64,000 nt of DNA from Arthrobacter echini. GTDB taxonomy: Bacteria; Actinomycetota; Actinomycetes; Actinomycetales; Micrococcaceae. Position numbers and translations under genes: made by a program. Shown here in pieces: positions 1,098 through 55,591 of this stretch. The notes under the pieces are model-generated. The model made no database searches, had not been told where the DNA came from, and saw only the letters and a program-made list of their open reading frames with translations. Location: the NCBI RefSeq assembly GCF_008107445.1, contig NZ_VSLD01000003.1:1-64000 (forward strand). Direction: 5' to 3'. The stretch's first letter is position 1. Each line of letters opens with the position of its first letter.

Positions 1098-2540
1098 ATG
1101 GTTCGATCGGCTGACCTGCTGGTCTCTTCCAACTTCATCCGCGCGGTCCGCGACTCTGGCTACGTGAGCCTCTCGACCGCTCTTGCCGAACTCATCGACA
1201 ACTCCCTGCAAGCCGGCGCGGACGAAATCACCATCGACATCGCACGGCTCACAACCAATGGGCATCCAGAGATCCGCGTTGGGGACAATGGCACCGGGAT
1301 GTCGCGATCCCAGCTTCAGGCGTGCCTCCGCTTCGGTGGCTCGTCCCGCTTTGATGATCGAAACTCATTCGGCCGCTTTGGTATGGGTCTCCCTGCAGCA
1401 TCTCTCAGCCAAGCACGCAGGGTCGAGGTCATTTCGTGGCAGAAGGGCCGGACAGCCCACGCTGTAAACTTGGATGTCGACGCAATCGTGGCAGGGGAGC
1501 AAGTCGACCTCAGCCCTCGTCTCAAGAGAAATGCTGCACGGGGTCAGTCTGGATGCTTAGTTATTTGGCAGGACTGTGATCGCATCGAGTACCGGCGACT
1601 CGCCTGGCTCGAACGAGCCTTGCATCGCGATCTTGGGCGGACGTATCGAAGGTTTCTTCAGCAGAACCTGACTTTGACCCTGAACGGAAAGGCTGTGCAA
1701 GCGATCGATCCAATGCTTCTTGCAACAGAGGCTGAAGGATATTCGGGACGGCTTGCGTTTGAACCAATGCGGTATGAAATAGAGACCACCTCGGGTGTGA
1801 CCTCTTTCGTAACCGTCCGATTTGTTAGCCTCCCCGTCCATCACTGGCACCACCTCGACAATGTAACCAAACGACGAATTGGGATCGTTGGTAATGCTGG
1901 TGTTTCAATCATGCGCGCCGGCCGTGAGATTGCCAGTGGCTGGTATCTTATGGGTTCCAAGCGTAAGGAAAATTATGACGATTGGTGGCGCTGTGAGATT
2001 GATTTCGATCCTATCCTGGACGAGCATTTCGGTATCACGATCAACAAGCAGGGTATTCGGCCCTCACAGGTGCTTCGTGAAGCAGTCGAGTCCGAGCTAG
2101 AATCGATCGCACGACTGCTCAATGGACGGGTGCGTCAAGCTTTCGAAGAAGTCAAGTTCCAAGCCGCAACTGAAGCATCATGTCGAATTGCCGCCGCAGC
2201 AGATGCCGACCTGCCGGTAATTCGTTCAAGCGGGAAGCATCATGGTGCTCTAGGCTACCGAATCAAATCCGATCAGCTCCCTGTAGACACCATGTTCACA
2301 TCTTCGTTGAATCAACGGACTTTAGAAGTTACTTTGAATGTAGACCACCCGTCTTACGCTGCGTTGTACCAACCCCTTCAACTACTCGGTGGTGACGCTA
2401 GTGATCTGCGGGCTGCCTTGGAGCTTTTTGTCCTCGCGTTCGCGCGCACAGCGACACTTTTAGATCACGATGGGAAACTCTGCGATGAAATGCTCCAGCT
2501 ATGGAGCACGACCTACGGACGGATGCTGCAAAAGCTGTGA
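1098..2540 (+). CDS. GHKL (MORC/HSP90-like) ATPase of the Druantia-like locus
   Basis: A 480-aa cytoplasmic protein with an N-terminal Bergerat-fold ATPase. The N box AELIDNSLQAGA lies near residues 30-41, the G1 motif DNGTGM near 62-68 and the G2 motif GRFGMGLPAA near 92-101, the arrangement found in MORC, MutL and HSP90-type ATPases. The remaining 380 residues match no family I recognise. The ATG at 1098 is chosen because AGAGGAG sits six bases upstream; longer in-frame starts lack such a site. The 3' end overlaps the DruA-like gene, implying coupled translation. ATP-driven clamp closure on DNA or partner proteins is inferred from family behaviour; a role in phage defence is inferred from its neighbours. 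Confidence 0.85.
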   Translation: MVRSADLLVSSNFIRAVRDSGYVSLSTALAELIDNSLQAGADEITIDIARLTTNGHPEIRVGDNGTGMSRSQLQACLRFGGSSRFDDRNSFGRFGMGLPAASLSQARRVEVISWQKGRTAHAVNLDVDAIVAGEQVDLSPRLKRNAARGQSGCLVIWQDCDRIEYRRLAWLERALHRDLGRTYRRFLQQNLTLTLNGKAVQAIDPMLLATEAEGYSGRLAFEPMRYEIETTSGVTSFVTVRFVSLPVHHWHHLDNVTKRRIGIVGNAGVSIMRAGREIASGWYLMGSKRKENYDDWWRCEIDFDPILDEHFGITINKQGIRPSQVLREAVESELESIARLLNGRVRQAFEEVKFQAATEASCRIAAAADADLPVIRSSGKHHGALGYRIKSDQLPVDTMFTSSLNQRTLEVTLNVDHPSYAALYQPLQLLGGDASDLRAALELFVLAFARTATLLDHDGKLCDEMLQLWSTTYGRMLQKL

Positions 2541-4516
2541 CAAGCGAAACAAAGTACTTACCAATCAATCTTCCCGTGGGAACAACCCGGATAGATCGGC
2601 AGGGGTTCAATCGTCTGTGTGAGGCCCTCGCTAACGCCGACGTTGTACTCGATAAAGCAGTAGCCGATCATGACTACTGGATTAACGCCGCCGGTCTGAA
2701 ATCGCTCTACCATCGACCCGTGTTAGCTGCTGCCGCACACACCCTCATTGATCTGGTTGATCAGGGTTGGACCGTTCGATTAGTCAAACACGGGCCACTA
2801 CTTGCTCCTCCGTCGCCCGACGGCGATCGATCTGCGGAAAAATCACGAATTAGGCGGCAAGAGCATTTGCGCCGCGACGAGCAGCTGAGAAAACCTAGCG
2901 TCCGCCGTTTCATCCAGAGCATGGAACAGGTACACCAGCGGGGAGCCCAATTAGTATCAATTTTCGACCTCATGCGCGATGGACGGGAACTGGCCGACGA
3001 GCTTGAGCGTGATCCGAACTCGAAAACAGTAATCCGGCCTTACGTTCAGGTTGTAGATGTATCTACTTGTGAGCTGACTGGGTTCAAGCTCCACGACATC
3101 TGGCGGTATTTCCGGCATACGTGGTCAAACGCCTACTCCACTATTCCCGGGCGATCAATGCCCATTTTAATTCGTGACGCAGCTACAAAGTTTCATACCG
3201 TAATTGGTCTCGCTGCTATATCCAGTCCTGTCGTCCAAATTGCCGAGCGCGACCGCTGGATAGGCTGGGATACAGATCAATTTCTCGAAGAGGTCCGCTC
3301 TCAGCCCTCTACCGAGATCGCTCTCTGGTTCAAGGAACGCCTCGAGACGCATCGTAGTGAGATTTATGTCGATGACCTGCTGCGCGACGACGTCCTCCAG
3401 CCTACTGATCTCATGCATCCGAGCCCAGAAGCCATTGCGCTTTTGCGTGCAGATGCGGAGCGCCATCGGAACAAGCATCATCGAGCAAGCACAATCCGCG
3501 GTGTTCGCGCGATAGAGCGTGACTCCTGGGAAGAGCGCGCGGAAACTCATTTATTCCGGAGCAAACGCTCGGCTGCGCTAGCAGAGGCACTCGAGATTTC
3601 GAGCTTGCTCGGGTCGTATCTTTCTCCCACCCCCACTGTGGAGGGGCTAAAAGAGGCTTTAGCTGACCCGAAAGCACGCACTCAGATGCGCCGTCTTGTA
3701 CGGCGAGCTCGTGGAGAACGGGTGGGCACAGTGATCGCCGACCTAACAGTGTGCGGGGCCATCGCGCCATACAACGCTCTTGTCGGCGGCAAGCTAGTGG
3801 GCGCTCTCGCTGTCTCCCCAAAGGTTTTGACGGCGTACCGAAATAAATACATGCGAGCGAGCGAGATCGCCTCAGCCATGGCCGGTCGCCCGATCGTGCG
3901 TGAAGCACGATTGTCGTTCGTTGGAACCACATCGCTGTACGGCACCGGGTCGAGCCAGTACAACCGACTTTATTGGCCGGCCGAGGCAATGGGCGGTACG
4001 GAAAGTGTCCGGATGGGTTTCCACGAGTTGGGGAAGTCACGCTCGTTCGGCACATCGCATTTTTCGCACGAAACGGTGGAGGCGCTTGTGCGTTTGTCCG
4101 TTCACAGCGGTTCACTGGTGCGGGTCAACAGCTTGTTCGGTGAAGGCGTTAGTCCACGGCTCAGGAAGGTTCGGATCGGCCTCACAGCCCTCGGCTGGCC
4201 CGCGGACGAACTGCTGAAGCATGGCCGTGAGCGCATCGTCTACGGGGTGCCGCTCGTTCACAACCTTCGCGACTATTCCTTGGGGATTGACTCAGAGCCG
4301 GACTACCTTCTAGACCCCATGCTCGAAGAGGCAGATTCTCAGGTTTCGGACTGGTGGCTTGAGCGGTGGTGCCAACGTCGTGCAGCCCAACCCGCTGTAC
4401 TTGAGTCCGTGCGATCACATCAGTTGGTTCGACCTGTTCATCACGGTGCTCGCGTAACCCTGCCCCCAGATGACGAGCTTTTGCTATCCACGAATAACCG
4501 GACCGAAGCATCTTAG
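2501..4516 (+). CDS. DruA-like protein (DUF4338)
   Basis: A 671-aa protein. Residues ~205-260 and ~415-620 resemble the DUF4338 family whose founding member is DruA of the Druantia anti-phage system. Hallmarks are RDRWIGW near 251-256, APYNALVGGKL, SLYGTGSSQYNRL near 476-490, and FGEGVSPRLRKVRIGL near the C-terminus. About 170 N-terminal residues are extra and unrecognised. The ATG at 2501 overlaps the ATPase gene by 40 bases. An in-frame GTG at 2537 forms a GTGA junction with the ATPase stop and may be the true start; neither has a strong ribosome site. The biochemical activity of DruA-type proteins is not established to my knowledge. The assignment rests on recalled family motifs and needs a profile search. 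Confidence 0.72.
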   Translation: MEHDLRTDAAKAVTSETKYLPINLPVGTTRIDRQGFNRLCEALANADVVLDKAVADHDYWINAAGLKSLYHRPVLAAAAHTLIDLVDQGWTVRLVKHGPLLAPPSPDGDRSAEKSRIRRQEHLRRDEQLRKPSVRRFIQSMEQVHQRGAQLVSIFDLMRDGRELADELERDPNSKTVIRPYVQVVDVSTCELTGFKLHDIWRYFRHTWSNAYSTIPGRSMPILIRDAATKFHTVIGLAAISSPVVQIAERDRWIGWDTDQFLEEVRSQPSTEIALWFKERLETHRSEIYVDDLLRDDVLQPTDLMHPSPEAIALLRADAERHRNKHHRASTIRGVRAIERDSWEERAETHLFRSKRSAALAEALEISSLLGSYLSPTPTVEGLKEALADPKARTQMRRLVRRARGERVGTVIADLTVCGAIAPYNALVGGKLVGALAVSPKVLTAYRNKYMRASEIASAMAGRPIVREARLSFVGTTSLYGTGSSQYNRLYWPAEAMGGTESVRMGFHELGKSRSFGTSHFSHETVEALVRLSVHSGSLVRVNSLFGEGVSPRLRKVRIGLTALGWPADELLKHGRERIVYGVPLVHNLRDYSLGIDSEPDYLLDPMLEEADSQVSDWWLERWCQRRAAQPAVLESVRSHQLVRPVHHGARVTLPPDDELLLSTNNRTEAS

Positions 4517-4518
4517 GA

Positions 4519-5772
4519 TCATGAGTTGCCGGGTGCAGTGAGAACGAACATCTCAGACGAGACAGTCATGATCGCTGCTGTGGCATTGTTCTCGGGGTCA
4601 TCATCGAGTCGAATCCCCAAAAGTCGGATCCGGCTGCCTCCAGAAAGGGGCGGCGTAGTTGCGGTGGTGCGCAGTAGCAGTTGCTTCTGACCGCTTTTTT
4701 CGTGCAGCAGCCACCAACTTCGTGAGCCATTCTGCGGTCCCACCATGCCCTGGTAATCGAACCAGGTGCCATCTGCAAGGCTCAGGGGATCAGGCGCCAT
4801 TTGCGACCAGTAGACATCACAAAGCTGTCGCACTTGGCACGTGGAGCAGTTCTGATCATTGGGGATTGCTCGTGGCACCGGAGCTTGGATCTCTTCATCG
4901 GCACTGGTCGTGCGTTGCTTGAGGGAGGACTCCAGCTCTCGCAGCGCTGACTCGCTAGGAGCCGGGATGGTCACGTTACGGTTGGGATAAGCGGCCGTGA
5001 GTTCGGAAACAAGACGCCGACTTGGGTTGACAATCTGATCAAGATTCCAAAGGAGAGCATAAAGGCGCAATTGATCCAAGTGGCCCGGGTCTTCGGTGCC
5101 CGTCTTATAGTCGGTGATGTCTACGCGATCGTCAGCAATTTTAAGCAAGTCGATGCGCCCCATGAGACGCAACTCTTCGGCTGCAAGCAGTACCTCAGCG
5201 TGCGCGCCCGGCTTGGCGGGTCTGCGCGGAAGGGCAAACCCAGAGCCGGAGCCCCCGCTGGTCGTAGCATCAGATGCACTGCCTGATGGGGAGGGGATAA
5301 GGGTTGTACGACAGACATAGGCCTGGATTTGAGCGCGAGCTTCTGCGACCCGTCCTCGGAGATTTCGTTCCATGCGCTGCCTTTGGTCAGCATGCAGTCG
5401 GGGGCTCGTAGGTAGCCGTGCCAAACGGTCGTCAATCACTCGCTCCGTAACCGCGGTGTAGCCTCCCAGCTTGCGCAGCACGGCAACAGCGCTGGTGCCT
5501 TGGGGCGAATCACAGCCCGCGTCGACAAACGCCGTCACAATCACGTCGAGAGCACCGTGGATCACGTCGCCGAATAGAGCAGCTAACGTCGGGATTTGAG
5601 GGTATCCCTGCCCTCCCCAAAGATCTGGATAGGAGGCCCGCGAGAGCGAATAACGCCGGGGGCAGGTCTCAATCTCCTTGAGCGCGGAGTAGTTCCAGAA
5701 ACTGGGTCGGGTTGGTAGGACGGCAGAAGACTTTTCGACACTGGTGTGATATTGCTTGGCAGTCACGCTCAT
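4519..5772 (-). CDS. RecB/Cas4-like PD-(D/E)XK nuclease with Fe-S cysteines
   Basis: A 417-aa protein with a PDDEXK_1 nuclease core. SALKEIETCPRRY sits near the N-terminus, GRIDLL then ITDYKTG form the catalytic D...DxK, and LDQLRLYALLW supplies the trailing Q-x3-Y helix. One N-terminal Cys plus CSTCQVRQLC after the core give the four-cysteine 4Fe-4S layout seen in Cas4 and AddB. About 90 further C-terminal residues may be an OB-like module. Its ATG overlaps the stop of the upstream giant helicase by four bases, so it is the last gene of that minus operon. It ends two bases from the convergent DruA-like gene. Probable role: cutting or resecting DNA handed over by the helicase (inference). Confidence 0.82.
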   Translation of the reverse strand: MSVTAKQYHTSVEKSSAVLPTRPSFWNYSALKEIETCPRRYSLSRASYPDLWGGQGYPQIPTLAALFGDVIHGALDVIVTAFVDAGCDSPQGTSAVAVLRKLGGYTAVTERVIDDRLARLPTSPRLHADQRQRMERNLRGRVAEARAQIQAYVCRTTLIPSPSGSASDATTSGGSGSGFALPRRPAKPGAHAEVLLAAEELRLMGRIDLLKIADDRVDITDYKTGTEDPGHLDQLRLYALLWNLDQIVNPSRRLVSELTAAYPNRNVTIPAPSESALRELESSLKQRTTSADEEIQAPVPRAIPNDQNCSTCQVRQLCDVYWSQMAPDPLSLADGTWFDYQGMVGPQNGSRSWWLLHEKSGQKQLLLRTTATTPPLSGGSRIRLLGIRLDDDPENNATAAIMTVSSEMFVLTAPGNS

Positions 5773-8700
5773 GTCAGGGACTTCTGAACAAGTTGAGTGG
5801 CGAAAGGCAGATTCCGGGCAATCAACATGTCATCGATGAGCCGTACGGGGATGCTACCAAACTCCTTTGCGTCACGCAGGGCATCAGTCGGGGCGAGGTC
5901 GGGTGTCAGTGGTCCATGCACCCCAAAGATCCAATGCGCGTCACCTCGTGTTGCAAGAATGGGAACTGCAACGGAACCAATTCCCTCGATCTCGAGTAAA
6001 ACACCGCGTTCGAACGAAACCCCCTCGATACCTCGACTGATGAGATCCTCATACAACTTGTCTGCCGAGCCATCTAGTCGCGCTGTATCCAATGTAGGAG
6101 GCGTTCCGTTGACCAGATAACGAAGCAAGCTCGCGCCGGCGTGACGGTCCAGTAGGTTGTGCTCGAACCGATTGCGGAAGCTCCGAAGACACCGGTAACA
6201 AGACTCGTCACAGTTGACCGGGCAACCCTCGAGGAGGTTCAACGTATCTTCGAAGATCCCCAGGCCAAGGTCATAAACCCGCCGGGTGAACCCGGCGCCT
6301 CCCGAGAGTGTGTCGTATAGGTAAATTTCAGCCTCAAGCCCTTCACTACCAAGCGCAGTAAGCGCCGGTCGAAATTCCGCTTGAATCTCGGTCGCCTCGA
6401 TATCGAGCCTTCTAGTCGCCGCGATTGTAAGTGCCTCCGCTATGGTGCGCAGGGCAATGTGCGTAGATAGAAATTCCGGTCGCAGCGTCATTGGAGAAGC
6501 GACTTTCACTCGAACTAGTAAAACGTCCGAGATGAAGTCGGTCCCCAAAACCAATCCCTTCGTAGCCGCCGATCCCAGACAGTTCGGCTCTTTTTCGTCA
6601 GGGTAGGGCTTCCTATGAGTTCCAGTCACCACGTCCGATGCGGTGGCGGTCGGCTCAATCATTCCGCACCGGGTGCAGTAGGTATACCCTTCGTTGCGCG
6701 GGCCCGTGTTCGTGACGAGTAGAGGATCCCTGCGGTATGACTGCTGGATGTGATCGGTGACGCGCAGCCACGCTGACTCATCCATTGGTCCAGGGTGCAT
6801 AAGCTTGGCCCGAGTTGCATAACTTTTTGATGGGGCATCATCAGGACTCGTCCCGGGATCTTTCGACGCCAGGTGCGCGAAGCCGGGAGGTCGCATCCAG
6901 TTCATAGCCTTACCGAACGTGCCTGCTGCACCACACGCCGGGCAGTCGCGCTCCTCGCCGCGTTCAGCCTGATCATACGGAAAGTGCTTCGCGTAGTGAC
7001 ACACCCTGCATTCGAAGTACAGCAACTTGTCGCGCCAGGCGTTGAACCGTTCCTTCTGCACTGGTGCGTAAATGGCGCCCGACGTCCATTCTTTATTGTC
7101 GATCCAGACCACCTTACCCGGAGCATATTGACTAAGTGCGACATCAAGACCCTGGCTCGGAGCGTAGCGGAATTCCGCTCTGTACGGCTTTGACTTGTCC
7201 AAGTCGAACACATGGAATGCAACCACGTCCGTCGGAAATGCGTAGCGTGGAAGAACACCTTTGTAGAGCAACCGATCTAGTAGATTGGTCTGCGAACGCG
7301 GAGACCTTGGTGCTTCAGCTCCGTCCTCTGCCGGCCCTTCGGCCTCAACCTCTCCAGAAGCGGGCTCAGAATCGCTCACAGAGACCTCGGGAAGATTGCC
7401 TTCAAGGTCGAGATCTAGGGCACTGTCGATATCACGCAGCGTCCGTGTGACGATGTCAGCGAGGACGGAGGCGCGGTCCGATTCCTTCAACTCATGCGGA
7501 AGCCACGAATCGACGTCTTCTTTCAGCTCAGTCTCCTGCTCCTTCAGCCATTCTTCGAGATCACTGCGATTGAGCGGCGAGCTGGTGCCTACGAACGCCC
7601 CGACGGTCCCCAGCACTTCAAACAGTTGAGGCTGTTCAGCCGGATCGATCGTGGGAAGGCGGTCTTGGTGATAGCGCTGCAGCAAGTATGCGATGACATG
7701 ACGGCGAACAATCTCGTCATTGTCCATCGTAAGCACCGGATCGAGGACGCTCCCGCGGATCATAAGTTCTGGATGACGGAAGTAATGGTCATCGTGTGTG
7801 TCTGCACTCCCGAAAGCCAGCACGGTGGCTACAGCGTTACCGCGACGCCCCGCCCGGCCCGCCCGCTGCTGGTAGTTCGCCCGGGATGGCGGCATATTGC
7901 GAAGAGCGACGCCCGACAGATTGCCAATGTCGATACCGACCTCCATGGTCGTCGTGCATGACAGCACGTCGATAGCTGCCCTTGGCTGTTCTCCGGGCTT
8001 TGGGAGGCCTAGATCGACATCCTGAAACAACAATTCATGTTCCTCAGCTTTAGAGAACACGGCGTCGGACTGAGAGGCATTTAGCTGCGCTGTGTGTTCC
8101 GCAGCGATGATGCTCATGGGTGATTCGGGTGGGGTTGCCAATGCCCGCACAGCGCTGGCCCGGTAATACCCCTTGCGTGCTTGGAAGACTGGATCGGTTT
8201 CCGGGTCAAGCGTTCGAACCTCATCAGCGAGGCAATTGATGCAGCGCTTGGTCCCCGGGAACGGCCTCTGTGTAAACCGGCACCGCTCACAGTACCCCCA
8301 AAGGCCTCCAGGATCGAGGGCTATCTTAGAGGCGGAGAGCCGGAATTTACCGGCAATTCCCTCACAAACCAGTGGCAGCAGCAAAGGTAGCCAATCCTGA
8401 TTAAACTTCTTGTCAGCGGTTTTGGAGTTCATCCATCGCTTCAGCGGCAAAAATTTGCCCTTATGCGGCTTTACGCCACCTTTGGTCATCCACCAGTCGC
8501 CTTCGGTCATCGACGAAAACCAGATGCCCTTAGTTGGAGTACTCCACTGGGCCAGCCAGAGCCGTACAAGCGCCAACTTGGCGTCGTCTGTCTCCGCTAT
8601 CCCGTCGATGCTCGGCAATTTGTCCAGCATCTCATCGGTCAAACTCGCTTTCTCCCTGATTGAGGCGAGGCCAAGCGAGGAAAGGCCGTAGTACTTGTCG

Positions 8701-11342
8701 GTCAAGGTCGCATACATGGCCCGGAGAAGAGATTGAGGAGGATCGTCACTGATGAGCGAGAGTTCCATCAATTGGCCCACGTCGCCGTTCAGCGCACCCT
8801 TGTTGATTGCCTTCCCCACGTCCCCAAGCGCGTGGAGGGACTCTGTTGGTCGGAGTTCCGGGCGCAGGCGGACTGACAGTTGCTTAGAGCCCACCATCGA
8901 GGCGAGGTAGAGGCGCTCTAAGCTCATCGAGGGTCCGAGGAGTGGCTGGTCAGCGAGTTCTTGCCACCCGCGGAGGATGAGAGGACGGATGACATCGCGC
9001 ATCGCGTAGTTCTGAAGGTTTGGCGCCAATCGAGCGGCAACTTGCCGCGAGTCGGAAAACGCCAAGACCTTCCTGCCTCTTAGCGGGGCGAAATCTGTAT
9101 AAGGCTGGGGGCCAGGGGGTTGCACCTCAATCTGCCGGGTGACGAGTGCCTGGAACGGCTGGTCGCCTTTAGTTTGGTGATCCTGTACCGATGAGCGTCC
9201 GAACCCCGCGATCTGGCCACAAACGCCGCAGGGCTTGAACTCACCGTTGGCTTCAGCTTCGTCGTCGTCGTCCTCGTCCCCACCTTTGACCACTTCACCG
9301 GAACGCAGACCGGGAATGAAGACCTGACGCATCCGGTCGCTTGGGTACTGAGGATTGAGTCGCCCGGTAACAAGGTCGAGGTCAGCGGGCTCGATCCTAG
9401 CGCCCTCAGACGGCGCTTCAAGTAGAAGGTCCAAAGCGTGGAGTTCGGGGATTGGCCCTGATATTGATTGGAACTCGCCGCCCTGTTCGTGCCACAGAAA
9501 CGACGGGTCAGTGACATCGTTCGTGTAAGTGCGGGCGTACGCCGAGCCGCAATGCCGGCAGGTAAATAGTTCGAAAACTCGCGCTCCGCAACCACAAGTG
9601 GCCCGGGGCTGGGCATACATTTGGCCGATTGGGCCGAAATCGGCGAAGACCGTACGGTCGATCTCGGAGCATGTTGAATCGAGACATGCCCAAAGGCCGG
9701 GTAAACCCCGAAAGAAAGCATGCACGCGGCACGGAAGCAAGCTAGCTTCGTCCGTAGTGCGCCGCGCAGCGCTGCCGAGCGCTACCAAAGTGGAAGCTGC
9801 CCTATCCGCCAGTTCGATGGAGACGTTGGGAAAAATTTTCGGACCAAGTTCGCCCACCGGCTGCGCTTGCTGCATCGTCTCGTTAACCAGTAAGTTCATT
9901 GGCCCAAAAGTACTTAGAGCCTCGCTCAGGGCACCTCCCACGGGTGTTTCCGGTGTAGCGATGATGCCGCGGTGATCAAGGAGCGGCTGTATCGCTGCCG
10001 CGCGCTGGTCATCGGTTTCGCTGTCGTAAAACTCCTGTAATCGCACCGAGGCCAGTACTTGCGCGTCTTCGACTGTCCCGACGGCCGCAGGATTGCGCAG
10101 AGAGAGTTGCCCCCCGATGGTTCGGAACTCCGTGACGGATTTCCCGGTTAATTGCGCCGCGAACTGCCGGGCATATTCTGGACTGGCGAAACTTGCGCTG
10201 GTGCAGATCACCTGGACGCGCTCGGGTGGGATGCCGAGCCGTGACCTGAATCGTCGGAGGAGCAGGGCAACCTCAGCTCCAGCCGCGCCACGGTAGAGAT
10301 GGGCTTCATCGATGACCAGGAGGAATTTTTCGTCCGGGTTTTCTTGCAGCCATGTTTTGGTCGCATCGAACACCGGGCGCTCCAGCGGACGCATCAACAT
10401 ATATTCGAGCATCGAGTAGTTGGTGATCAGGACGTCTGGCGGGTTCGCGAGGACTTCGTGTCGCGTCAACAACTCGGGGTCATTGGGCTGCAGGACAGCG
10501 CGCAAGAACTCGCCATACCCGTTTTTCCAATGCGTGCCCTTCAGGCCGTACCAAGCCTTCAGATCTGGCTTGGCAGGCCATTTGCCGCGTGATTTCAACT
10601 CCTTCATGAGAGCTCGGGCGTCCTCGCGCCAAGGTGAAGTGGGATCATTGGCTTGGTCAATTAGAAGAATATAAAAGTCCTCAATTGGGCTCAGGCGCTG
10701 TTGATCCTTCTCGACTTTTCGGACACCGGGGTAGAGAGTCCGGCTTGTATAACGCGCGAATCGAGCCGGACGGCCAGCCCACTCGTCGAACTGGGTAGTG
10801 ACGCGAGGGTCGCCGAGCAATAGGCGGAGGCGACCAAGTTGGTCGTTAACCAATGCGTTCATCGGATAGAGGATTAACGCACGTACTGCCGGTGTTTCAA
10901 AAGACTTCGGGTTGTGTGCGGCTTCGCTCGCAAGCTTGGCGAGCATAGGCAAGAGGAAGGACTCGGTCTTTCCGGAGCCCGTTCCGGTTGTGATCGCCAA
11001 GCTGAGGCCGTCACGCGCGGTCAATTCCAGGGCCTCGGCTTGATGCGTGTAGGGAGGGTCGTAGAGCAACGGTTTGAGTTCTCCGGTGCCGTTGGTGAGG
11101 CTTGCGAACAGCGTCTGGACCGCATTGTCGAGTTCCAGGTGCGAGAACTTTCGGTCTGTTTTGTAGCGCGGCGTGCTCTCAATGAAAGGTGACCGACCGA
11201 GGACGCCTTCTTCTTCAAGCAATGCCCGTCGTTGCTGGATCAGTGCGGGGTGCCCAATATGGTAGGTTGCCTCGATGTAGTCACGTAGTGCAGCCTGAAT
11301 ATTGGTGACTGTTTCTGCAATTGTTGGTGCTTCTGTTCTCAC
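5769..11342 (-). CDS. DruE-like giant DEAH helicase with DUF1998
   Basis: A 1,857-aa superfamily II helicase. Walker A TTGTGSGKTES lies near residue 119, DEAH (VIDEAHLYRG) near 345, and motif VI QQRAGRAGRRG in the second RecA lobe. Several CxxC pairs follow, and a C-terminal DUF1998 carries GGAGFTRRVYDLG and CDESCYRCLRSF...LLDRH. Length and layout fit DruE of Druantia and the helicase/DUF1998 proteins of related defence loci. The GTG at 11342 is preferred to the ATG at 11375: AAGGAGG lies at ideal spacing, and the GTG overlaps the upstream stop (GTGA), showing translational coupling. The operon is 952-aa unknown, 363-aa unknown, helicase, nuclease. Likely an ATP-driven DNA translocase that acts on invading DNA (inference). 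Confidence 0.88.
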   Translation of the reverse strand: MRTEAPTIAETVTNIQAALRDYIEATYHIGHPALIQQRRALLEEEGVLGRSPFIESTPRYKTDRKFSHLELDNAVQTLFASLTNGTGELKPLLYDPPYTHQAEALELTARDGLSLAITTGTGSGKTESFLLPMLAKLASEAAHNPKSFETPAVRALILYPMNALVNDQLGRLRLLLGDPRVTTQFDEWAGRPARFARYTSRTLYPGVRKVEKDQQRLSPIEDFYILLIDQANDPTSPWREDARALMKELKSRGKWPAKPDLKAWYGLKGTHWKNGYGEFLRAVLQPNDPELLTRHEVLANPPDVLITNYSMLEYMLMRPLERPVFDATKTWLQENPDEKFLLVIDEAHLYRGAAGAEVALLLRRFRSRLGIPPERVQVICTSASFASPEYARQFAAQLTGKSVTEFRTIGGQLSLRNPAAVGTVEDAQVLASVRLQEFYDSETDDQRAAAIQPLLDHRGIIATPETPVGGALSEALSTFGPMNLLVNETMQQAQPVGELGPKIFPNVSIELADRAASTLVALGSAARRTTDEASLLPCRVHAFFRGLPGLWACLDSTCSEIDRTVFADFGPIGQMYAQPRATCGCGARVFELFTCRHCGSAYARTYTNDVTDPSFLWHEQGGEFQSISGPIPELHALDLLLEAPSEGARIEPADLDLVTGRLNPQYPSDRMRQVFIPGLRSGEVVKGGDEDDDDEAEANGEFKPCGVCGQIAGFGRSSVQDHQTKGDQPFQALVTRQIEVQPPGPQPYTDFAPLRGRKVLAFSDSRQVAARLAPNLQNYAMRDVIRPLILRGWQELADQPLLGPSMSLERLYLASMVGSKQLSVRLRPELRPTESLHALGDVGKAINKGALNGDVGQLMELSLISDDPPQSLLRAMYATLTDKYYGLSSLGLASIREKASLTDEMLDKLPSIDGIAETDDAKLALVRLWLAQWSTPTKGIWFSSMTEGDWWMTKGGVKPHKGKFLPLKRWMNSKTADKKFNQDWLPLLLPLVCEGIAGKFRLSASKIALDPGGLWGYCERCRFTQRPFPGTKRCINCLADEVRTLDPETDPVFQARKGYYRASAVRALATPPESPMSIIAAEHTAQLNASQSDAVFSKAEEHELLFQDVDLGLPKPGEQPRAAIDVLSCTTTMEVGIDIGNLSGVALRNMPPSRANYQQRAGRAGRRGNAVATVLAFGSADTHDDHYFRHPELMIRGSVLDPVLTMDNDEIVRRHVIAYLLQRYHQDRLPTIDPAEQPQLFEVLGTVGAFVGTSSPLNRSDLEEWLKEQETELKEDVDSWLPHELKESDRASVLADIVTRTLRDIDSALDLDLEGNLPEVSVSDSEPASGEVEAEGPAEDGAEAPRSPRSQTNLLDRLLYKGVLPRYAFPTDVVAFHVFDLDKSKPYRAEFRYAPSQGLDVALSQYAPGKVVWIDNKEWTSGAIYAPVQKERFNAWRDKLLYFECRVCHYAKHFPYDQAERGEERDCPACGAAGTFGKAMNWMRPPGFAHLASKDPGTSPDDAPSKSYATRAKLMHPGPMDESAWLRVTDHIQQSYRRDPLLVTNTGPRNEGYTYCTRCGMIEPTATASDVVTGTHRKPYPDEKEPNCLGSAATKGLVLGTDFISDVLLVRVKVASPMTLRPEFLSTHIALRTIAEALTIAATRRLDIEATEIQAEFRPALTALGSEGLEAEIYLYDTLSGGAGFTRRVYDLGLGIFEDTLNLLEGCPVNCDESCYRCLRSFRNRFEHNLLDRHAGASLLRYLVNGTPPTLDTARLDGSADKLYEDLISRGIEGVSFERGVLLEIEGIGSVAVPILATRGDAHWIFGVHGPLTPDLAPTDALRDAKEFGSIPVRLIDDMLIARNLPFATQLVQKSLT

Positions 11343-12430
11343 TCTGTTCCTCCTTCGTGCGTTACCCGCATCCACAGCATGTCAGTAAGAAATTTCTGGA
11401 GGTCTGGTTTTGCCTTTAGGGGCACGCGGTACGAGAACAACGATCTGTCCGCACGCTGCACAGCTAAACCGACCAGCTCGAGATATCGTTCCGCCCAGCC
11501 TGGAATTGGCCCGAAAAAGTCGGCGATTATGTGAGAAGTGTTGTTTTGAATGGAGCGGAAGCGGAAGATCTGCGGTTCCTGTCTGACAGCATCAATCGCG
11601 GCTTGCAGCCGCCATGCTTCGTCGCGGCCAGGCAGCGCCGGGTGGTCTACGGGAAAATCGATCAATTGCTGAGGCAAACCTTCGATTACACGGACGAAAC
11701 ACCACAGGTCAGCACCATAAGCTTGGGGTCGCCGAGCGACAAAGTCCCCGGTCTCCGTACCATCTAAGGTGCGCCACCGACCCCTGTAGAAGCGGACAGG
11801 AGCCACTGGATCCAAGATCATCAGTCCCTCCACGTCACCTGCGCGACCCGCAATTGATACTTGCTGCGTTAGCCGCCGCACAAGGTCTCGAGCAACGATA
11901 GGGGCAGGTTTAGCCACCCACCGATCCCGATTGATCTCGTGTAGGCCGAGTGCTGCGAACTGGGCAGCCGCAGTCGCTGGGTCTAACTGGATGATGCGAG
12001 TTTGGCTCTCATAAAGCACCTCGCTACGAAGCGAAGTGCCGACCAGCGAGGTACCAAAAGGGCGCACTCCGAACACCAGATACTGTCCTGGCTCCCGCTC
12101 TACATATGAGGGAGGTCCAAGAAAGAGGAGCCGTGTAGTTAGGGACTCGACTTGTCGGAGTTCCAGCAGGTCGCCTCCTGAAATCAAGAGGTCAAGTTGG
12201 TCCATCAGGTCATCTCGTGAAGGAGTGGCGTCCCCGTGGAGTGGTCGTAGCACCGCAAGCACTGCATCAACAAGTTCGCGTGGTGCTGCCGGACATAGGA
12301 ACGAGGCAGCGCGACGCAGCGAGGCCGACAAACCCTCGGGGGAGATGAGGTCGATAGATTCCTCATCGAGTTCTAGAGATCTCACAGCAAGCGCAGCAGA
12401 TTCTCTTGCCGACGCAGTAAGTATCCTCAC
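11339..12430 (-). CDS. Unknown protein of the Druantia-like operon (363 aa)
   Basis: A 363-aa soluble protein with no family I recognise. The N-terminal 100 residues look helical (LISPEGLSASLRRAASFL, DLMDQLDLLISGGDLLEL). The middle holds a beta-rich stretch around FYRGRWRTLDGTETGDF. No signal peptide, membrane segment or catalytic motif was seen. The GTG start at 12430 shares one base with the upstream TAG stop, and its own stop overlaps the helicase GTG, so it lies inside a tightly coupled operon. Position suggests an accessory subunit comparable to the poorly characterised DruB-DruD proteins of Druantia, but no homology to them is claimed. Confidence 0.75.
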   Translation of the reverse strand: MRILTASARESAALAVRSLELDEESIDLISPEGLSASLRRAASFLCPAAPRELVDAVLAVLRPLHGDATPSRDDLMDQLDLLISGGDLLELRQVESLTTRLLFLGPPSYVEREPGQYLVFGVRPFGTSLVGTSLRSEVLYESQTRIIQLDPATAAAQFAALGLHEINRDRWVAKPAPIVARDLVRRLTQQVSIAGRAGDVEGLMILDPVAPVRFYRGRWRTLDGTETGDFVARRPQAYGADLWCFVRVIEGLPQQLIDFPVDHPALPGRDEAWRLQAAIDAVRQEPQIFRFRSIQNNTSHIIADFFGPIPGWAERYLELVGLAVQRADRSLFSYRVPLKAKPDLQKFLTDMLWMRVTHEGGTE

Positions 12431-15288
12431 TAGAAACCCGTCCCCCCTTCATTATTCTCTTGAAGCGCTCGGGTCCCCAAGACGGCGAAACGAGCTGCAC
12501 GCAGTAGCACCGGTGATCCCATAATCCGCTCGAGCAGTTCGTCTCGATCGACAGCATTCCAGTTCGCGATGTAACCGGGACGTCCCGCTAGGGTCAGCAG
12601 GAACCTGGTTGCCGCCGGCCGACAAGAGATGCCGCTACTTTGGATTGCCCCTTCCATGATTTGTGCAAAACCCGACAACAACGCGCCGGGTGTTAACCAG
12701 TTCCAAAGGTTACTCCCGATCTTTGCAGCAACAGCTTTATGGTTGTCGGAATCTCCTACGCAGTCCCTCATGTCGTCCAAGTAGTCAGAAACATCATCGA
12801 CGTGTACAAGCTTGCGCTCCAGCCTTGCCCAGTGCGTTCCAGCGATCAGCGAGACAATTTCTCTCGTGATCGCCTCCCTTGCAGCATCCCGTCCGTGCAG
12901 GGCAAAGACATCTGCGGGAAGCTCTGCTTCCGACCAAGCGAGATGCGCCTTTGCTAGCCGAAGAACTTCGTGCGATAACTTGCCAGACGTTTGAACTAAC
13001 GGCCGCACCTGGCCCATGTGCAGGAGCCTACTGGGGTCCGTAGGCAGGATGATGGAGTTTTGCACCTCCGCAGCGGTCGCACGGAGCAAACCACCTCGGG
13101 GTGGTGCCTCTATGTCAGAATCCGACGGGCACGGTACAGCGACGGTTGGTTCATCCACTGTGAAAAGTTCTACCAATGTGTTCCTGCCGTCAGTGCGGTC
13201 GAGAAGACGAGCGGTGCGACTGCCGTTCTGCCTTCTAGTCGTCCGCCAGCGCAACGGCTGGAAGCCACGGTCACACGTCAAACGCGCAAAACCGATCCCT
13301 GATCGAGAGACGAGAAGTTCACCCGACTCGGCATCGTCGTATGCATGTTGGAAGACGCGATTATCCCGCACTTCCTTCGCGATGTTCGTCCACGCTTCGG
13401 ACGAGAGGGGCAGGCTCAGCGTTCGCCGAATGTCAGCAAGCACGGAACCGTCGACCGCACTCAGGATCACGGAAAGGTCGGCTTGCGTGTTCGGTGGGCC
13501 GTCAATCGATACCGTTGCACGGCCATCCCACAGGTCGCTTAGTGTTGGCCATGCCGGCGCTGCCAGCAGCCTTATTCCCTCACCCGAGCTGGTGCCTTCG
13601 GGTGCAGTTTGAGGGTCCCGGATAGTGACGACCAAAGCGCCTTTACCCAATTCTTCCTTAGATTTTCCCATAAGCATCACCGTTAGATTGTGAGTCCCAA
13701 TGGTCAAATCCGTGAGAGCGAGGAAAAGTTCAAGCTCTCCTTCGGGCCATGGCATGATAAATCGATGACCCTCTATTGCCACAACACACGTGTCTGGGGT
13801 GCGTTCGGCTTGAATTGCTATAAGTCCAGGTTCGCCGGTTAGCCACTCCACCGAGCCGTCGCCATCCCATGCGCTTGCAACGATTCCCACCGGACGCACT
13901 AAAACATCAGAGGCCACAGAGATTCCTGCTGCAATTATGTCGGAAGCATCTGTCTCGCTGAGTGTTTGAGGGACGACTAAATTGAAAGCTCTCAAACCCG
14001 AAGCGGAAATTACCGTCTCCGACGCCCAAGAAAGGTTCGGGGGAGCTGTAGTTTCGCGGAATACGAGTACGTATGATCCCCCTGGACGGAGAGTCTTTCC
14101 TAAAACTTCCACTGCCAGACCCGCGTCATTTCTCCGAAATAACCAATGGGGGCCACCAGCAATGGTGCACGTATCAGCGAGGAACTGATTCACCGTCGCG
14201 GAGGCTTTCTCCAACTGTAGGAATGGTGTCCCTGAATCAGGTAATGATTTTAGCTGTACCTCCTGTCCGGAGTAGATTAGCCGTCCGGTCGCCAACATCG
14301 TTCCGCTGCTCCCACCAACGCGTACACGAGAAGTACGTAGCTCGTCGTACAGGTGGGGTAGCCGTCCGCGTAGAACGCTTAGGTCCGGGAGTTTTGCGTA
14401 AATGCTCCATCCGCCGCCTTGGACGCGAAGCAGCAACTTGGGATCCGTAGTTGAAGGAACGCGTTCGTGCCGTTGCGGTGACGATATGCTTTTCGTCCCA
14501 GTCTGGAAGCCGCGTAAACGTATGCTGTTCGCTGATTGACGGGCGGATGCAAGCCAAAGCCTGGATTGCTGTTCTCGGGACAGCCCGTCTACCAATCGCA
14601 TAAGTGTCGCGTGAGTCAAATAGGGAAAATTTTCCTCTTCCCCGGATAGCAGTGCGGCTGCTACCTGTCCTAAAAGCGTTGTGTTTTCGCAGAACACCCG
14701 AAAGCGCTCCGTGTATGTTCCTACTCGCGATGCCAAGCGGGTTCCGAGCTCAGAGGGGTTATGCAAAAGGTCGCTGGTGAGTCCGTTGCTGAATTCGAAG
14801 AGGAGTTGGGCAAGGTTTCGCTGCAGGTATCTAGGTAGGACAGCGTGGGTAATGGGCCACGCAATGATAGGAAATTGTGCGGCGAACGCACCCTTTGGAA
14901 CGGCACCGTCGTAGTCAGTTGCAAATTTTACGAACCAACCTCTGAGTCGATCACGATCGCCGTGCTCCCGCCAAAAGGGAGTTGATGCCTCATAAGTAGG
15001 CCAATATTCTTCTCCGGTGTACCCATAGCCCGACTCGGCTGCGTACACTACAAAGGGTAACCACCAAACACGGAATTTGGCGCCGAATCCTTGAACAACT
15101 GCGGCCCGAACAACGGAATTTAGGAGTTTGAGATCAGCCTCGCTTAGGTCATGTTCAAGTGCGAAGACTGGCGTTGTTCCGTCCCCCACCTTGCGACGGA
15201 CGTCACGTAGCTGGCAGAAGTGAACGTCGAGCCTTCTGTGCAAGTGCTCGAGAATCTCCACTGTGCTGCCCGGCCTGACATCCTGCAC
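12430..15288 (-). CDS. Unknown large protein, first gene of the Druantia-like minus operon (952 aa)
   Basis: A 952-aa soluble protein of unknown family. The first ~250 residues are helical and aromatic-rich. A long central part is predicted beta-rich with repeated short strands (GGSYVLVF, TCVVAIEGHRFIM), reminiscent of Ig-like or beta-sandwich recognition domains. The last ~200 residues are helical. No nuclease, helicase or membrane motif was seen. GAGGG lies upstream of the ATG at 15288. As first gene of the operon it may be the most abundantly translated subunit; a sensor or scaffold role is only a guess from its length and lack of catalytic motifs. Confidence 0.75.
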   Translation of the reverse strand: MQDVRPGSTVEILEHLHRRLDVHFCQLRDVRRKVGDGTTPVFALEHDLSEADLKLLNSVVRAAVVQGFGAKFRVWWLPFVVYAAESGYGYTGEEYWPTYEASTPFWREHGDRDRLRGWFVKFATDYDGAVPKGAFAAQFPIIAWPITHAVLPRYLQRNLAQLLFEFSNGLTSDLLHNPSELGTRLASRVGTYTERFRVFCENTTLLGQVAAALLSGEEENFPYLTHATLMRLVDGLSREQQSRLWLASARQSANSIRLRGFQTGTKSISSPQRHERVPSTTDPKLLLRVQGGGWSIYAKLPDLSVLRGRLPHLYDELRTSRVRVGGSSGTMLATGRLIYSGQEVQLKSLPDSGTPFLQLEKASATVNQFLADTCTIAGGPHWLFRRNDAGLAVEVLGKTLRPGGSYVLVFRETTAPPNLSWASETVISASGLRAFNLVVPQTLSETDASDIIAAGISVASDVLVRPVGIVASAWDGDGSVEWLTGEPGLIAIQAERTPDTCVVAIEGHRFIMPWPEGELELFLALTDLTIGTHNLTVMLMGKSKEELGKGALVVTIRDPQTAPEGTSSGEGIRLLAAPAWPTLSDLWDGRATVSIDGPPNTQADLSVILSAVDGSVLADIRRTLSLPLSSEAWTNIAKEVRDNRVFQHAYDDAESGELLVSRSGIGFARLTCDRGFQPLRWRTTRRQNGSRTARLLDRTDGRNTLVELFTVDEPTVAVPCPSDSDIEAPPRGGLLRATAAEVQNSIILPTDPSRLLHMGQVRPLVQTSGKLSHEVLRLAKAHLAWSEAELPADVFALHGRDAAREAITREIVSLIAGTHWARLERKLVHVDDVSDYLDDMRDCVGDSDNHKAVAAKIGSNLWNWLTPGALLSGFAQIMEGAIQSSGISCRPAATRFLLTLAGRPGYIANWNAVDRDELLERIMGSPVLLRAARFAVLGTRALQENNEGGTGF

Positions 15289-16139
15289 CCTCGTGGACCC
15301 CCCTTAAATTGTCTTATAATGCTGACCCACTTTCCCATGCGAGAGTTTGGGACAGAGCACTGACAGTGTAGCGGGTCAGTGATCGAGTTCAGGTGTATAA
15401 CAGGCATTTTGTATCGGAGTTGTCTACATTCTTGAGCTTCGGAGCTCTAAACCGCGTGCCTAAGGGGTGGTACATCTGTTGCGTCGAGTACACCCAAGGC
15501 AACTATGCAGATCAGCTCGGATTGCGTTGTCTTAGGGGATCTTCGCGAACGAGGATGTGGCCAGTTGAGCGTGTGGCGGACTGGGTGAAGATCAAGTCCG
15601 TTGAGGAGGGAGGGGTCTCGTAAAGCGGTCCTTTGCCGCGATACCATCCACCGGCTTCGGCGAGGAGAGGAAATCCATATAGATGCTCACCTCTTCGATC
15701 CCCGGAAGATTCATCCGACCTGATACCCACTGAAGGCCCGAGATGTGGACGCGAGCCAGGAGTATGGACGTCCACAGTAGATCTCATTAAAGGATCCCTT
15801 GACAGGGCAGGTTGGCAGCCTCGGCGAGGGCCGCCATAGGCCCCCATCTGTGCGCGATGCTGCCTCGGAGCATGGTCTCAACAATGTGCCTCACCTCAGA
15901 TTTTCTCAACAAGGCGATACACCGCCTTTGACGGGAATGAGAGGACCGAAGTGAGGAGTGTCGAGTAGGCGAGGGTCAGCGCGGCGGAGGAACACGTTGC
16001 GTCACGGCATCTACGGCTCGGCGGCTGTCGCCGTCCTGAGCGTGCTCACCGACACCTGTCGAAGCAGATGCAAGGCCTCTTGCATCAATTCCCACCGCAG
16101 GTTCAGTTGCCGCAGGAACCCCTCTGGAAGGTAAGTCGG
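15289..16139. other. 850-bp intergenic stretch between two defence modules
   Basis: No convincing gene: the open frames here lack family resemblance and good ribosome sites. The left part must hold the promoter of the minus operon; a TATAAG-like box on the minus strand (15318 to 15313) lies 25 bases before its start codon, without a clear -35. A perfect inverted repeat lies near the right end (16067-16086). Confidence 0.5.
16067..16086. promoter_or_regulatory. Perfect inverted repeat upstream of the PLD-helicase gene
   Basis: GATGCAAG and CTTGCATC form a perfect 8-bp inverted repeat with a 4-bp spacer (GCCT), 53 bp upstream of the helicase start. There is no T-tract, so an operator is more likely than a terminator. 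The regulator is unknown. Confidence 0.45.
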
Positions 16140-19100
16140 ATGGCGGCGCCGCGCGCTTCGGCACAACAACTGCCAGTGATTGCCACAGCACGGACATACT
16201 CTATGACGGTGGAAGAAATAGCTGGAGGAGTGGCGCGGCAGGGGCTAGCCGAGGGCCTCTACGAAACGCTTGTTACTGACTCGCTCTTACGGCGCCTAGC
16301 TGACGCCCCTCAACTCGAAGCAAGAGTTGAGCCGCTAGGCGAAAATGACGCTCTTGCAGCGGTGTCACGGCACCTGGCCAAAGTGATGAAGGAGGCGCTG
16401 CTCAAAGCCGAGCCCGAAAGCCGACTTGCCCTGGTCAATCAACTTCTAGGCGCACTGTCAGCGAACGACGCAATCGATCAGGAGCCGTCGCAGTTACTAT
16501 CGCTACACAAGCGCGAGTCGGTCAAGCGGCGCGACTTGCGGCGGCCAGCGACGGCGCTCTCCAACTCTGCTCTCCTTACAAACGGCAGGGATGAGCCGAA
16601 CTTGGCGGCGGAGCTGCGCGCTGAGATGGAGTCCGCCAACACCGTCGACCTTCTCTGTGCATTTGTTCGATGGACCGGGCTCAGGCTTCTCCACCCGGCC
16701 CTCGAGCGGTTGGCTGAGCGGGGAGTGAAGCTACGCGTCATCACCACCACGTACATGGGTGCCACTGAACGCCGAGCCATTGACGAGTTAGTGAATCGAT
16801 ACGGCGCTGAGGTCAAGATCAGCTACGAATCGCAAGCAACGCGGTTGCATGCAAAGGCCTGGCTGTTTCGCCGCAACACCGGCTTCGATACCGCCTACGT
16901 GGGCAGCTCGAATTTGAGCAAGGCAGCTTTGGTCGACGGGCTCGAATGGAACGTGCGCCTTAGCTCCGTCGCCACGCCAGACCTCCTCAAGAAGTTTGAG
17001 GTGACCTTCGATAGCTACTGGGCGCAGCGCGCCTTTCAGCCCTATGACCCTGAGCGGGACGGCGACAAACTTGATGCGGCGCTCGAACGCAACGGTGGTC
17101 GACGCACCGGTGTACCAAAGACCGAAACTGGACTTGAGCTAGAGCCGTACCTGCACCAGAGCGAGATGCTCGAAGATCTCGAGTCTGAACGACTCAAGGG
17201 TCACACGCGAAACCTCATGGTTGCGGCAACCGGCACCGGTAAGACCGTCATCGCCGCTCTCGACTATCTGCGCCTTTGCGAAGCAGCGGGCCGGCGTCTC
17301 AAGCTGCTTTTCGTGGCGCATCGGCAGGAAATTCTGAAGCAAGCGCTGAGTACGTATCGCACTGTGATGCAGGACGGTGCGTTTGGCGAGCTATACGTGG
17401 GAGACAACAAGCCGGCGCAGTGGAACCAGGTCTTCGCGTCGGTACAATCGCTCGCCTCGCGCGGGATCGAAACGCTGGAACCGGACTCCTTCGACGTCGT
17501 CGTAATTGACGAATTCCATCACGCCATGGCGCCAAGCTATCGCTGCATCATCGACCACCTCCAACCCCAGCAGTTGCTCGGGTTGACCGCCACTCCCGAA
17601 CGTGGCGACGGTGTCGACGTAGCTCAGCAGTTCTTCGACGGCCGGACTGCGAGCGAACTTCGCCTTTGGGATGCTCTTGATGCTGACCTCCTAGTGCCGT
17701 TTCACTACTTCGGAGTGTCAGACGACGTCGACCTTAGCCAGCTGGAGTGGAAGCGGGGCAACTACGACGTCGGGCAACTCGACCGCCTGTACACGGGCAA
17801 CGATGCTCGGGCAGCGAAGGTCGTCCGAGAGCTGCGCGACAAGGTCACCAGCGTCGACGACATGCGCGCGCTTGGCTTCTGCGTCTCGGTGCAGCACGCG
17901 CACTACATGGCAGAGGTCTTCAACCGCGCTGGCATTCGATCGCTCGCTATTGATGGCGGCACCGACGATGTTGAGCGCGCACTCGCCCTGTCAAAGCTGC
18001 GAGACGCGACCATCAATTGTCTCTTCACCGTCGACCTGTTCAACGAAGGTCTTGACTTACCCCAGGTGGATACCGTGCTGATGCTTCGGCCTACTCAGAG
18101 CTCGACGGTATTCTTGCAGCAGCTCGGCCGCGGCCTCCGCAGGGCTGAGGGGAAGTCTGTGCTCACCGTGCTGGACTTCATCGGGCAACAGCGCCGCGAG
18201 TTTCGGTTCGACCTCCGGTATCGGGCACTGACAGGGTACGGGCGCAAGCAGCTAGAGAAGGCTGTGGAGGACGAGTTCCCCTACCTTCCGTCTGGGTCGC
18301 AGATCATCCTCGATCGTGTCGCGCAGAAGGTGGTGCTCGACAACATCAGGAATCAACTCCGATTCAATCGTGCGCAGCTCGTGCGAGATATTGCGTTCTA
18401 CGGCGAGACTAGCTTGGCTGCGTACCTCGAGAAGTCCGGCAATGACCTCAAACAGCTGTATAGAACCACAAAAGACTCGTGGACTGGTTACCTCCGTCAG
18501 GCGGGCCTGATCGGATCGCTTGCCGAAGCGGGTGTGGGCGAGCAGATTCTTGACTTATCTAGCTCTGAGGAGCAAAAGCTCCTTGGCCGCATGGTCCGCT
18601 TCCTTCACGTCGATGATCCCGAGCGCGGTGAAGCGTACGCGAAGCTCCTTGCACCCTCATGCCCGCCCTACGCGGACCTCGGCTCTCGCGAGCAGATTTT
18701 CGCGCGCATGCTGTTCTATACGCTTTGGAGCGACGGCGGCGCATTTAGCACGTACGACGCCGGCCTGAGTTACCTCCGCCAGCATCCCTTTGTGTGCAGC
18801 GAGATTCAGCAGCTGATCGCCCTAGGTGTCGCTGCCTCGCGTCGCGCGGGTAAGGGTCTTGGATTGGGATTGCAGCACATTCCTCTGCTGTCGCACGCAA
18901 CATACCGCCGGGAGGAGGTTCTCGCGGCGCTGAGTTACGGCTCCCTCGAAGCGGGGAAGAACGTGCAGCACCGTGAGGGAGTTGCTTGGTGTTCCCATAT
19001 TTCGACGGACGCCTTCTTCGTCACGCTCAGTAAGGATGAGAAGAACCACTCGGCGTCAACGATGTACAAGGATTATGCAATTAGCCCCGAGCTGTTCCAC

Positions 19101-19358
19101 TGGGAGTCCCAGAACGCGACTTCGCCGTCGAGCTCGACGGGACGGCGCTACCTGGACCGGAAAGGGCACGGCTCCCACGTGCTGATCTTCACGAGGCCGA
19201 CATCAGAGGACGAGACTGGACTCGCCGTTCCGTACACCTGCCTCGGAGCGGTGGACTACGTGCAGCACTCGGGGGAGAAACCGATCGCCATTACTTGGAA
19301 GCTGCACCGCCCTATGCCCGCGGACGTGTTCGCGGAGGCGGCCGCCGTGGCGCAGTAG
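16140..19358 (+). CDS. PLD nuclease-DEAD/DEAH helicase-DUF3427 fusion protein
   Basis: About 1,072 aa. The N-terminal third holds a phospholipase-D-type nuclease domain with an HxK motif (RLHAKAWLFRR, then YVGSSNLSKAAL). It is followed by a superfamily II helicase with Walker A AATGTGKT, DEFH box VVIDEFHHA, motif III GLTATPERGDG and motif VI QLGRGLRRAEG. The C-terminal ~330 residues correspond to the DUF3427 family. This single-chain helicase-nuclease layout is common in bacterial defence islands. The ATG at 16140 is chosen because GGAAGG lies upstream; ATG 16203 is a shorter alternative without one. Two DNA-processing genes follow, supporting a second defence module. The substrate is unknown. 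Confidence 0.88.
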   Translation: MAAPRASAQQLPVIATARTYSMTVEEIAGGVARQGLAEGLYETLVTDSLLRRLADAPQLEARVEPLGENDALAAVSRHLAKVMKEALLKAEPESRLALVNQLLGALSANDAIDQEPSQLLSLHKRESVKRRDLRRPATALSNSALLTNGRDEPNLAAELRAEMESANTVDLLCAFVRWTGLRLLHPALERLAERGVKLRVITTTYMGATERRAIDELVNRYGAEVKISYESQATRLHAKAWLFRRNTGFDTAYVGSSNLSKAALVDGLEWNVRLSSVATPDLLKKFEVTFDSYWAQRAFQPYDPERDGDKLDAALERNGGRRTGVPKTETGLELEPYLHQSEMLEDLESERLKGHTRNLMVAATGTGKTVIAALDYLRLCEAAGRRLKLLFVAHRQEILKQALSTYRTVMQDGAFGELYVGDNKPAQWNQVFASVQSLASRGIETLEPDSFDVVVIDEFHHAMAPSYRCIIDHLQPQQLLGLTATPERGDGVDVAQQFFDGRTASELRLWDALDADLLVPFHYFGVSDDVDLSQLEWKRGNYDVGQLDRLYTGNDARAAKVVRELRDKVTSVDDMRALGFCVSVQHAHYMAEVFNRAGIRSLAIDGGTDDVERALALSKLRDATINCLFTVDLFNEGLDLPQVDTVLMLRPTQSSTVFLQQLGRGLRRAEGKSVLTVLDFIGQQRREFRFDLRYRALTGYGRKQLEKAVEDEFPYLPSGSQIILDRVAQKVVLDNIRNQLRFNRAQLVRDIAFYGETSLAAYLEKSGNDLKQLYRTTKDSWTGYLRQAGLIGSLAEAGVGEQILDLSSSEEQKLLGRMVRFLHVDDPERGEAYAKLLAPSCPPYADLGSREQIFARMLFYTLWSDGGAFSTYDAGLSYLRQHPFVCSEIQQLIALGVAASRRAGKGLGLGLQHIPLLSHATYRREEVLAALSYGSLEAGKNVQHREGVAWCSHISTDAFFVTLSKDEKNHSASTMYKDYAISPELFHWESQNATSPSSSTGRRYLDRKGHGSHVLIFTRPTSEDETGLAVPYTCLGAVDYVQHSGEKPIAITWKLHRPMPADVFAEAAAVAQ

Positions 19359-19474
19359 GTCTCGTCGGTCTAGGACCGCTCGGTACCCGATGGCTTAAGT
19401 GCGCGCCGGTGACCTACTTCGTGAGTCATGTCGCGTAGCTTTGCCCATGGAAATGAAACTCTCAGAGAAAGGCA

Positions 19475-20410: not shown

Positions 20411-20471
20411 TGGGCAGACGATCCTGCAAGTTTTGAGTACAACGGTGACCAGTAGAAGGAAGAGGCTGACG

Positions 20472-52178: not shown

Positions 52179-52194
52179 TGACCGTGTGAGACCT

Positions 52195-55545: not shown

Positions 55546-55591
55546 CCACTTGTAGGACGAGGAGTTCGTCTAGAAGCTGCCGAAGATATTC

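Follow-up and report, generated by a model that had tools for sequence, protein, structure and literature searches.

A recurrent, putative Druantia variant in Arthrobacter echini with an unrecognised protein where DruB and DruC would stand

Within a window of 64,000 nucleotides from Arthrobacter echini (contig NZ_VSLD01000003.1, positions 1 to 64,000), the six genes at 1098-15288 form what their sequences indicate is an intact, recurrent Druantia variant, nearest to type I, in which an unrecognised 952-aa protein, here called X952, appears to stand where DruB and DruC would be. In its full form our explanation is that the locus is a single Druantia defence unit that moves horizontally, is related to type I with X952 for DruB and DruC, and works by the mechanism proposed below; we regard the chances of this whole as evenly balanced. 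Its system-level part is held with high confidence, and its mechanistic part, built on analogy, is a tentative proposal that we would sooner doubt than assume.

All six reading frames are open, and they lie in two convergent, tightly coupled operons, as the initial annotation of this DNA had described. On the plus strand, a MORC/MutL-like GHKL ATPase (1098..2540; HATPase_c_3, 1.2e-23), whose frame opens at 993 and whose start is likely at 1098, overlaps by 40 nt the gene for a long DruA of 671 aa (2501..4516). On the minus strand, X952 (12430..15288) is followed by the 363-aa DruD (11339..12430), by DruE, a YprA-family SF2 helicase of 1868 aa with DUF1998 (5769..11375), and by a Cas4-like PD-(D/E)XK nuclease of 417 aa with four Fe-S-type cysteines (4519..5772). 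Computed from the coordinates, the overlaps are 1 nt for DruD/X952, 37 nt for DruE/DruD and 4 nt for nuclease/DruE, with 2 nt between the convergent DruA and nuclease genes.

The first 20 kb of the window have a G+C content of 55-61%, versus 64-71.5% over 22-52 kb, as would be expected of foreign DNA. Since the locus is low in G+C compared with the chromosome behind it and two more defence-like genes come after it, we place it in a defence island. The adjacent stretch 16068-21119 encodes a PLD-ResIII helicase-DUF3427 protein (PADLOC mREase_IV, 1102 bits) and a NucS/YhcG-like nuclease (PDC-S02, 458 bits), then a 244-aa frame with no match. A second low-G+C pocket at 52000-56000 (57-59%) holds an HSDR_N-like gene at 53175-54275 and a 431-aa frame, also without a match. 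The dead insertion sequence formerly reported at the flank dwindles to a weak, sub-cut-off match at 246-545 (27.8 bits versus 34.3, 20 residues, putative IS4/5 transposase family). A DNA methyltransferase, the criterion for DISARM and ARMADA, was sought with Pfam up to E 0.5, and no such family was found in the six proteins.

Pfam matches bear out the four family calls originally made from the sequence: HATPase_c_3 for the GHKL protein, PF14236 (DUF4338) for the DruA-like protein, DEAD plus MZB/DUF1998 (the latter at 9.5e-12) for the DruE-like helicase, and PDDEXK_1 (2.6e-18) for the nuclease. The absence of a DUF4338 match within 2501-4516 had been named beforehand as one of two findings that would refute the annotation; the match is there, at 2e-28. 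PADLOC models agree that the locus is of Druantia type, with 918 bits for DruA (PDLC00001, residues 12-663) and 1980 bits for DruE (DruE1, full length), and they identify the 363-aa protein, previously listed as an unknown, as DruD (DruD1, PDLC00010, 406 bits). Given these three scores, the type I models of PADLOC already embrace this lineage for DruA, DruD and DruE, and the initial annotation overstated how foreign the locus is. Its claim of an undescribed combination survives for X952, for the pairing of GHKL with a long DruA and for an exchangeable slot behind DruE, and falls for the rest, since DruD is present and the type I models cover three of the genes.

The presence of DruA, DruD and DruE is our reason for relating the locus to type I, and the failure to find DruB and DruC when they were tested is our reason for not classing it as canonical type I. 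The canonical order DruA-B-C-D-E is seen in E. coli (NZ_CP180702.1) and on a P. putida plasmid. The likeness extends from the three homologues to a collinear order of DruA, the DruB/DruC place, DruD and DruE; unlike type I, the locus is without DruB and DruC, carries X952 instead and adds the GHKL and nuclease genes. DruE is 34% identical to E. coli DruE and contains the motifs TGTGSGKT, DEAH, QRAGRAGR and CPVNCDESCYRC. The C-terminal Vsr-type nuclease domain of type I and II DruE has been predicted to be inactive (PMC12458937), and by inspection no E/D-x-K motif was evident in the last 110 residues of the protein studied here. DruD is a distant relative of its E. coli and P. putida counterparts, with which a profile alignment spanned 285 columns (E 5.5e-4, probability 30%), and BLAST found no similarity to the P. 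putida protein. In a DruE tree, the longest branch lies between two canonical DruE and the DruE of 51 X952-type loci together with L090 and L124.

Searches of Pfam, PADLOC and NCBIfam (up to E 0.5) and of PDB sequences (up to E 0.1) gave no match for X952 itself, which the initial annotation had rightly left without a family. Its AlphaFold2 model (mean pLDDT 86.9) is predicted to be helical at 1-260, beta-rich at 284-750 and helical again at 770-942, in a placing of domains that is unsure because pTM is 0.46. An Ig-like domain is predicted in the beta-rich part, where the matches to Ig-like folds are unspecific and such folds are common. Judged from this model, X952 is perhaps a sensor.

Could X952 simply be DruB and DruC in fused, diverged form, which would make the locus a canonical type I system with other gene boundaries? 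In collinear loci it occupies the same place between DruA and DruD, as in the order DruA-X952-DruD-DruE of a Nitrosococcus plasmid, and its 952 aa may be set beside the 548 and 627 aa of DruB and DruC in E. coli. Against a fusion, comparison of 57 X952 rows with profiles for DruB and DruC, both thin at two rows each, gave probabilities of 0.3% and 0.1%, and no PADLOC DruB or DruC model matched X952 up to E 0.5. Neither protein was matched by PADLOC in any of the six proteins; the DruB model PDLC00003 found nothing in the source genome, in a search in which the control was silent too. We consider a fusion improbable, and favour the reading that X952 is a different protein standing in the DruB and DruC place.

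A profile scan with the X952 alignment recovered 64 X952 loci among genome contigs, many of them MAGs, whose titles name Actinomycetota, Acidobacteriota, Pseudomonadota, Desulfobulbus, Planctomycetes, Gemmatimonadetes and Hydrogenedentota, at least seven phyla by record title. X952 also occurs in two viral contigs and in nine plasmid records, five of which contain most of the protein, and in 4 of 396 Actinomycetota genomes, the source genome included and one of the four a fragment. We counted neighbourhoods in the 62 loci, all found through X952, in which X952 scored at least 600 bits. DruD adjoins X952 on the same strand in 58 of them (the others being L042, L060 at a contig end, L062 and L074), and DruE lies within the locus DNA in 55 of these 58, the remaining three of which end at contig ends. 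All six genes are present in convergent order in 19 of the 51 tree rows, the window among them (GHKL genes beyond locus ends were placed separately), and all six run collinearly in four loci (L047, L050, L054 and L068), which include Halotalea (L068) and a Desulfobulbus genome. A search with DruA, an entry independent of X952, matched 6 of the 396 Actinomycetota genomes. Three of these scored over 600 bits (the source genome, G164, which is listed in the same taxonomic order, and G230), and each has all six genes; in the other three DruA is short, and homologues of X952, DruD and DruE were not found in the stretches around it.

These neighbourhoods address whether the plus-strand GHKL-DruA pair and the minus-strand X952-DruD-DruE-nuclease operon are merely two separate systems side by side. 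The convergent order of the window and of most actinobacterial loci would suit that view, as would a locus (L020) with GHKL and DruA and no DruE in the 14 kb of it that were covered. It is countered by the four loci with six collinear genes, by 11 loci that lack an adjacent GHKL gene yet have a short DruA immediately in front of X952 (L053, L056, L057, L058, L060, L063, L070, L072, L086, L088 and L123), and by the fact that DruA is part of canonical Druantia I as well. Two separate systems therefore strike us as very improbable: because X952 and DruD are adjacent in 58 of 62 loci and the six genes are collinear in four, we take the two convergent operons to be one system. The co-occurrence of the two operons elsewhere, which the initial annotation had left to a neighbourhood survey, is thus established; of its single mobile unit, the single unit is upheld by the neighbourhoods, and mobility is indicated indirectly, by relatives on plasmids and viral contigs.

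Several loci depart from the common layout. One (L074, 5373-10921) looks like a deletion: an SF1 helicase fragment follows X952, GHKL and DruA lie on the opposite strand, and DruD and DruE are missing. Another (L069, 14075-17774) has an LmuA-like gene (242 bits) and others between DruD and DruE. L028 carries a second X952 copy of 1045 aa (5048-8185) upstream of a complete locus, and in L028 and L059 DruE is split over two adjacent frames. A Leisingera plasmid (L090, 4691-27009) has two GHKL genes, a long DruA, a 2094-aa DruE and a NERD-helicase, and on the opposite strand an X952-like protein paired with an SNF2 helicase; a similar pair is found in L084, and a second helicase may thus be a partner of X952.

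The GHKL motifs ELIDNS, DNGTGM and GRFGMGLP, or close forms of them, are present in all seven aligned rows, window included. Compared with the 409-aa DruA of one canonical locus, the long DruA is extended at its N terminus by about 94 residues and carries an insertion near 258-403. Among 36 loci with the whole of DruA visible, we separated long (at least 600 aa) from short (under 500 aa) proteins, and found that GHKL adjoins DruA in 25 of 25 loci with the long form and in 0 of 11 with the short. On the DruE tree (40 rows) this coupling corresponds to four changes, all four in step (p 0.125), and because there are only four independent changes we regard the rule as suggestive. Outside the X952 set, L020 (1173-4191) places GHKL beside a short DruA, with no DruE in the 14 kb covered, and a GHKL-DruA pair may exist alone.

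The slot behind DruE also varies, with 10 changes on the DruE tree. Across the 51 X952-type rows it holds the Cas4-like nuclease in 26, in 8 an SF1 helicase that has a D...E-x-K stretch in its N-terminal part, and a DUF4365 protein with its partner, the PDC-M02 pair of PADLOC, in 7; in the remaining 10, among them L040 at a contig end, none was recognised. From their motifs, we read two more of these products as putative nucleases: the DUF4365 protein, with D...Q-x-K, and the SF1 protein in its N-terminal part. Because 10 of 51 rows have no recognised nuclease behind DruE, either the system can do without the cassette or its nuclease is encoded elsewhere. In L067 (5506-7688), a DUF4365/PDC-M02B pair lies upstream of X952 instead of behind DruE. 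In the Cas4-like nuclease, C37, C309, C312, C318, H72, D208 and K223 are invariant in all 23 aligned rows, window included, and the cysteines probably bind an Fe-S cluster; its score with the Cas4 model TIGR00372 is 23.5 bits against a curated cut-off of 65, with the cysteines and PD-(D/E)XK residues still conserved.

Starting from the observed gene presence, intact motifs, co-occurrence, GHKL-long DruA coupling and cassette exchange, we infer the following activities. X952 would recognise a phage product or structure through its Ig-like part and signal to DruD and DruE, DruE would travel on phage DNA as an ATP-driven helicase, and the nuclease encoded behind it would cut the DNA that DruE opens. 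The GHKL ATPase and the added segments of the long DruA may together provide an ATP-gated clamp or a licensing step. Elsewhere, DUF4338 was interpreted as a GNAT-like acetyltransferase domain (PMC10853773); the scheme has no step for this, and such a reading would add one.

We chose X952 as the best candidate sensor in the locus by analogy with type III: there the sensor is likely to be DruH, which has three Ig-like domains, and the helicase DruE is the effector (PMC13192584). Both loci combine a YprA helicase with a large protein, which has Ig-like domains in DruH and a predicted Ig-like part in X952. DruH, however, belongs to the YjiT family and has nuclease activity (PMC13192584), no PADLOC model matched X952 up to E 0.5, and type III is a two-component system (PMC13316683). 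PADLOC covers DruH (PMC13192584); its matches up to E 0.5 for the five smaller proteins included no DruH, and neither did the best 25 of the 40 for DruE.

The same genes might instead form a helicase-nuclease unit that repairs DNA or restricts plasmids and is not directed at phages, with X952 as a mere scaffold. YprA helicases do act in repair too (PMC12458937), and GHKL proteins of the MORC kind accompany SF2 helicases in restriction-like operons (PMC2292703). The patchy occurrence of X952 in Actinomycetota (4 of 396 genomes), its presence on plasmids and two viral contigs, and the neighbouring mREase_IV and PDC-S02 genes argue for defence, and a unit for repair or plasmid restriction seems to us a poor bet.

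Parts of this architecture have precedents. A Cas4-like (pfam12705) nuclease linked to a YprA/DUF1998 helicase was described in 2017 (PMC5704561), a nuclease-helicase pair like ours; unlike our locus, the passage describing it names no DruA, DruD, GHKL or X952. DruK of PADLOC is likewise a PD-(D/E)XK nuclease among the Druantia models, but it matches the present nuclease with 38 bits over about 130 residues. MORC/paraMORC and MzaB provide parallels for GHKL ATPases with SF2 helicases and nucleases in restriction-like operons, but the GHKL protein here scores 101 bits with MzaB, against a curated cut-off of 850. Druantia IV has been defined in PADLOC (PMC8565338), and unappreciated diversity has been remarked upon (PMC12458937). 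A literature search resting largely on abstracts and excerpts found no description of the six-gene set. Three features look new: X952 in the DruB/DruC place, the association of GHKL with a long DruA, and the slot behind DruE with its exchangeable content.

For type I, the relevant passage of PMC12458937 names DruA-D and leaves them unexplained in sensing and cutting, the nuclease domain of DruE being predicted inactive. The apparent natural replacement of DruB and DruC, with the swapped predicted nucleases, offers natural experiments for telling sensor, switch, motor and cutter apart. X952 is also a missing marker for defence annotation, its loci being scored only in part by the PADLOC models used here. 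The predicted nuclease behind DruE appears exchangeable among three different cassettes, or none recognised. In an extended reading that we think rather unlikely, an X952 Ig-sensor replaced DruB and DruC, GHKL and the long-DruA extras would be a co-inherited ATP-gated switch, and the cutter would be a plug-in cassette exchanged so as to escape phage counter-defence. If this were true, Druantia would here be a modular chassis, its cassettes a Cas4-like Fe-S nuclease, a nuclease-SF1 helicase or a DUF4365 pair.
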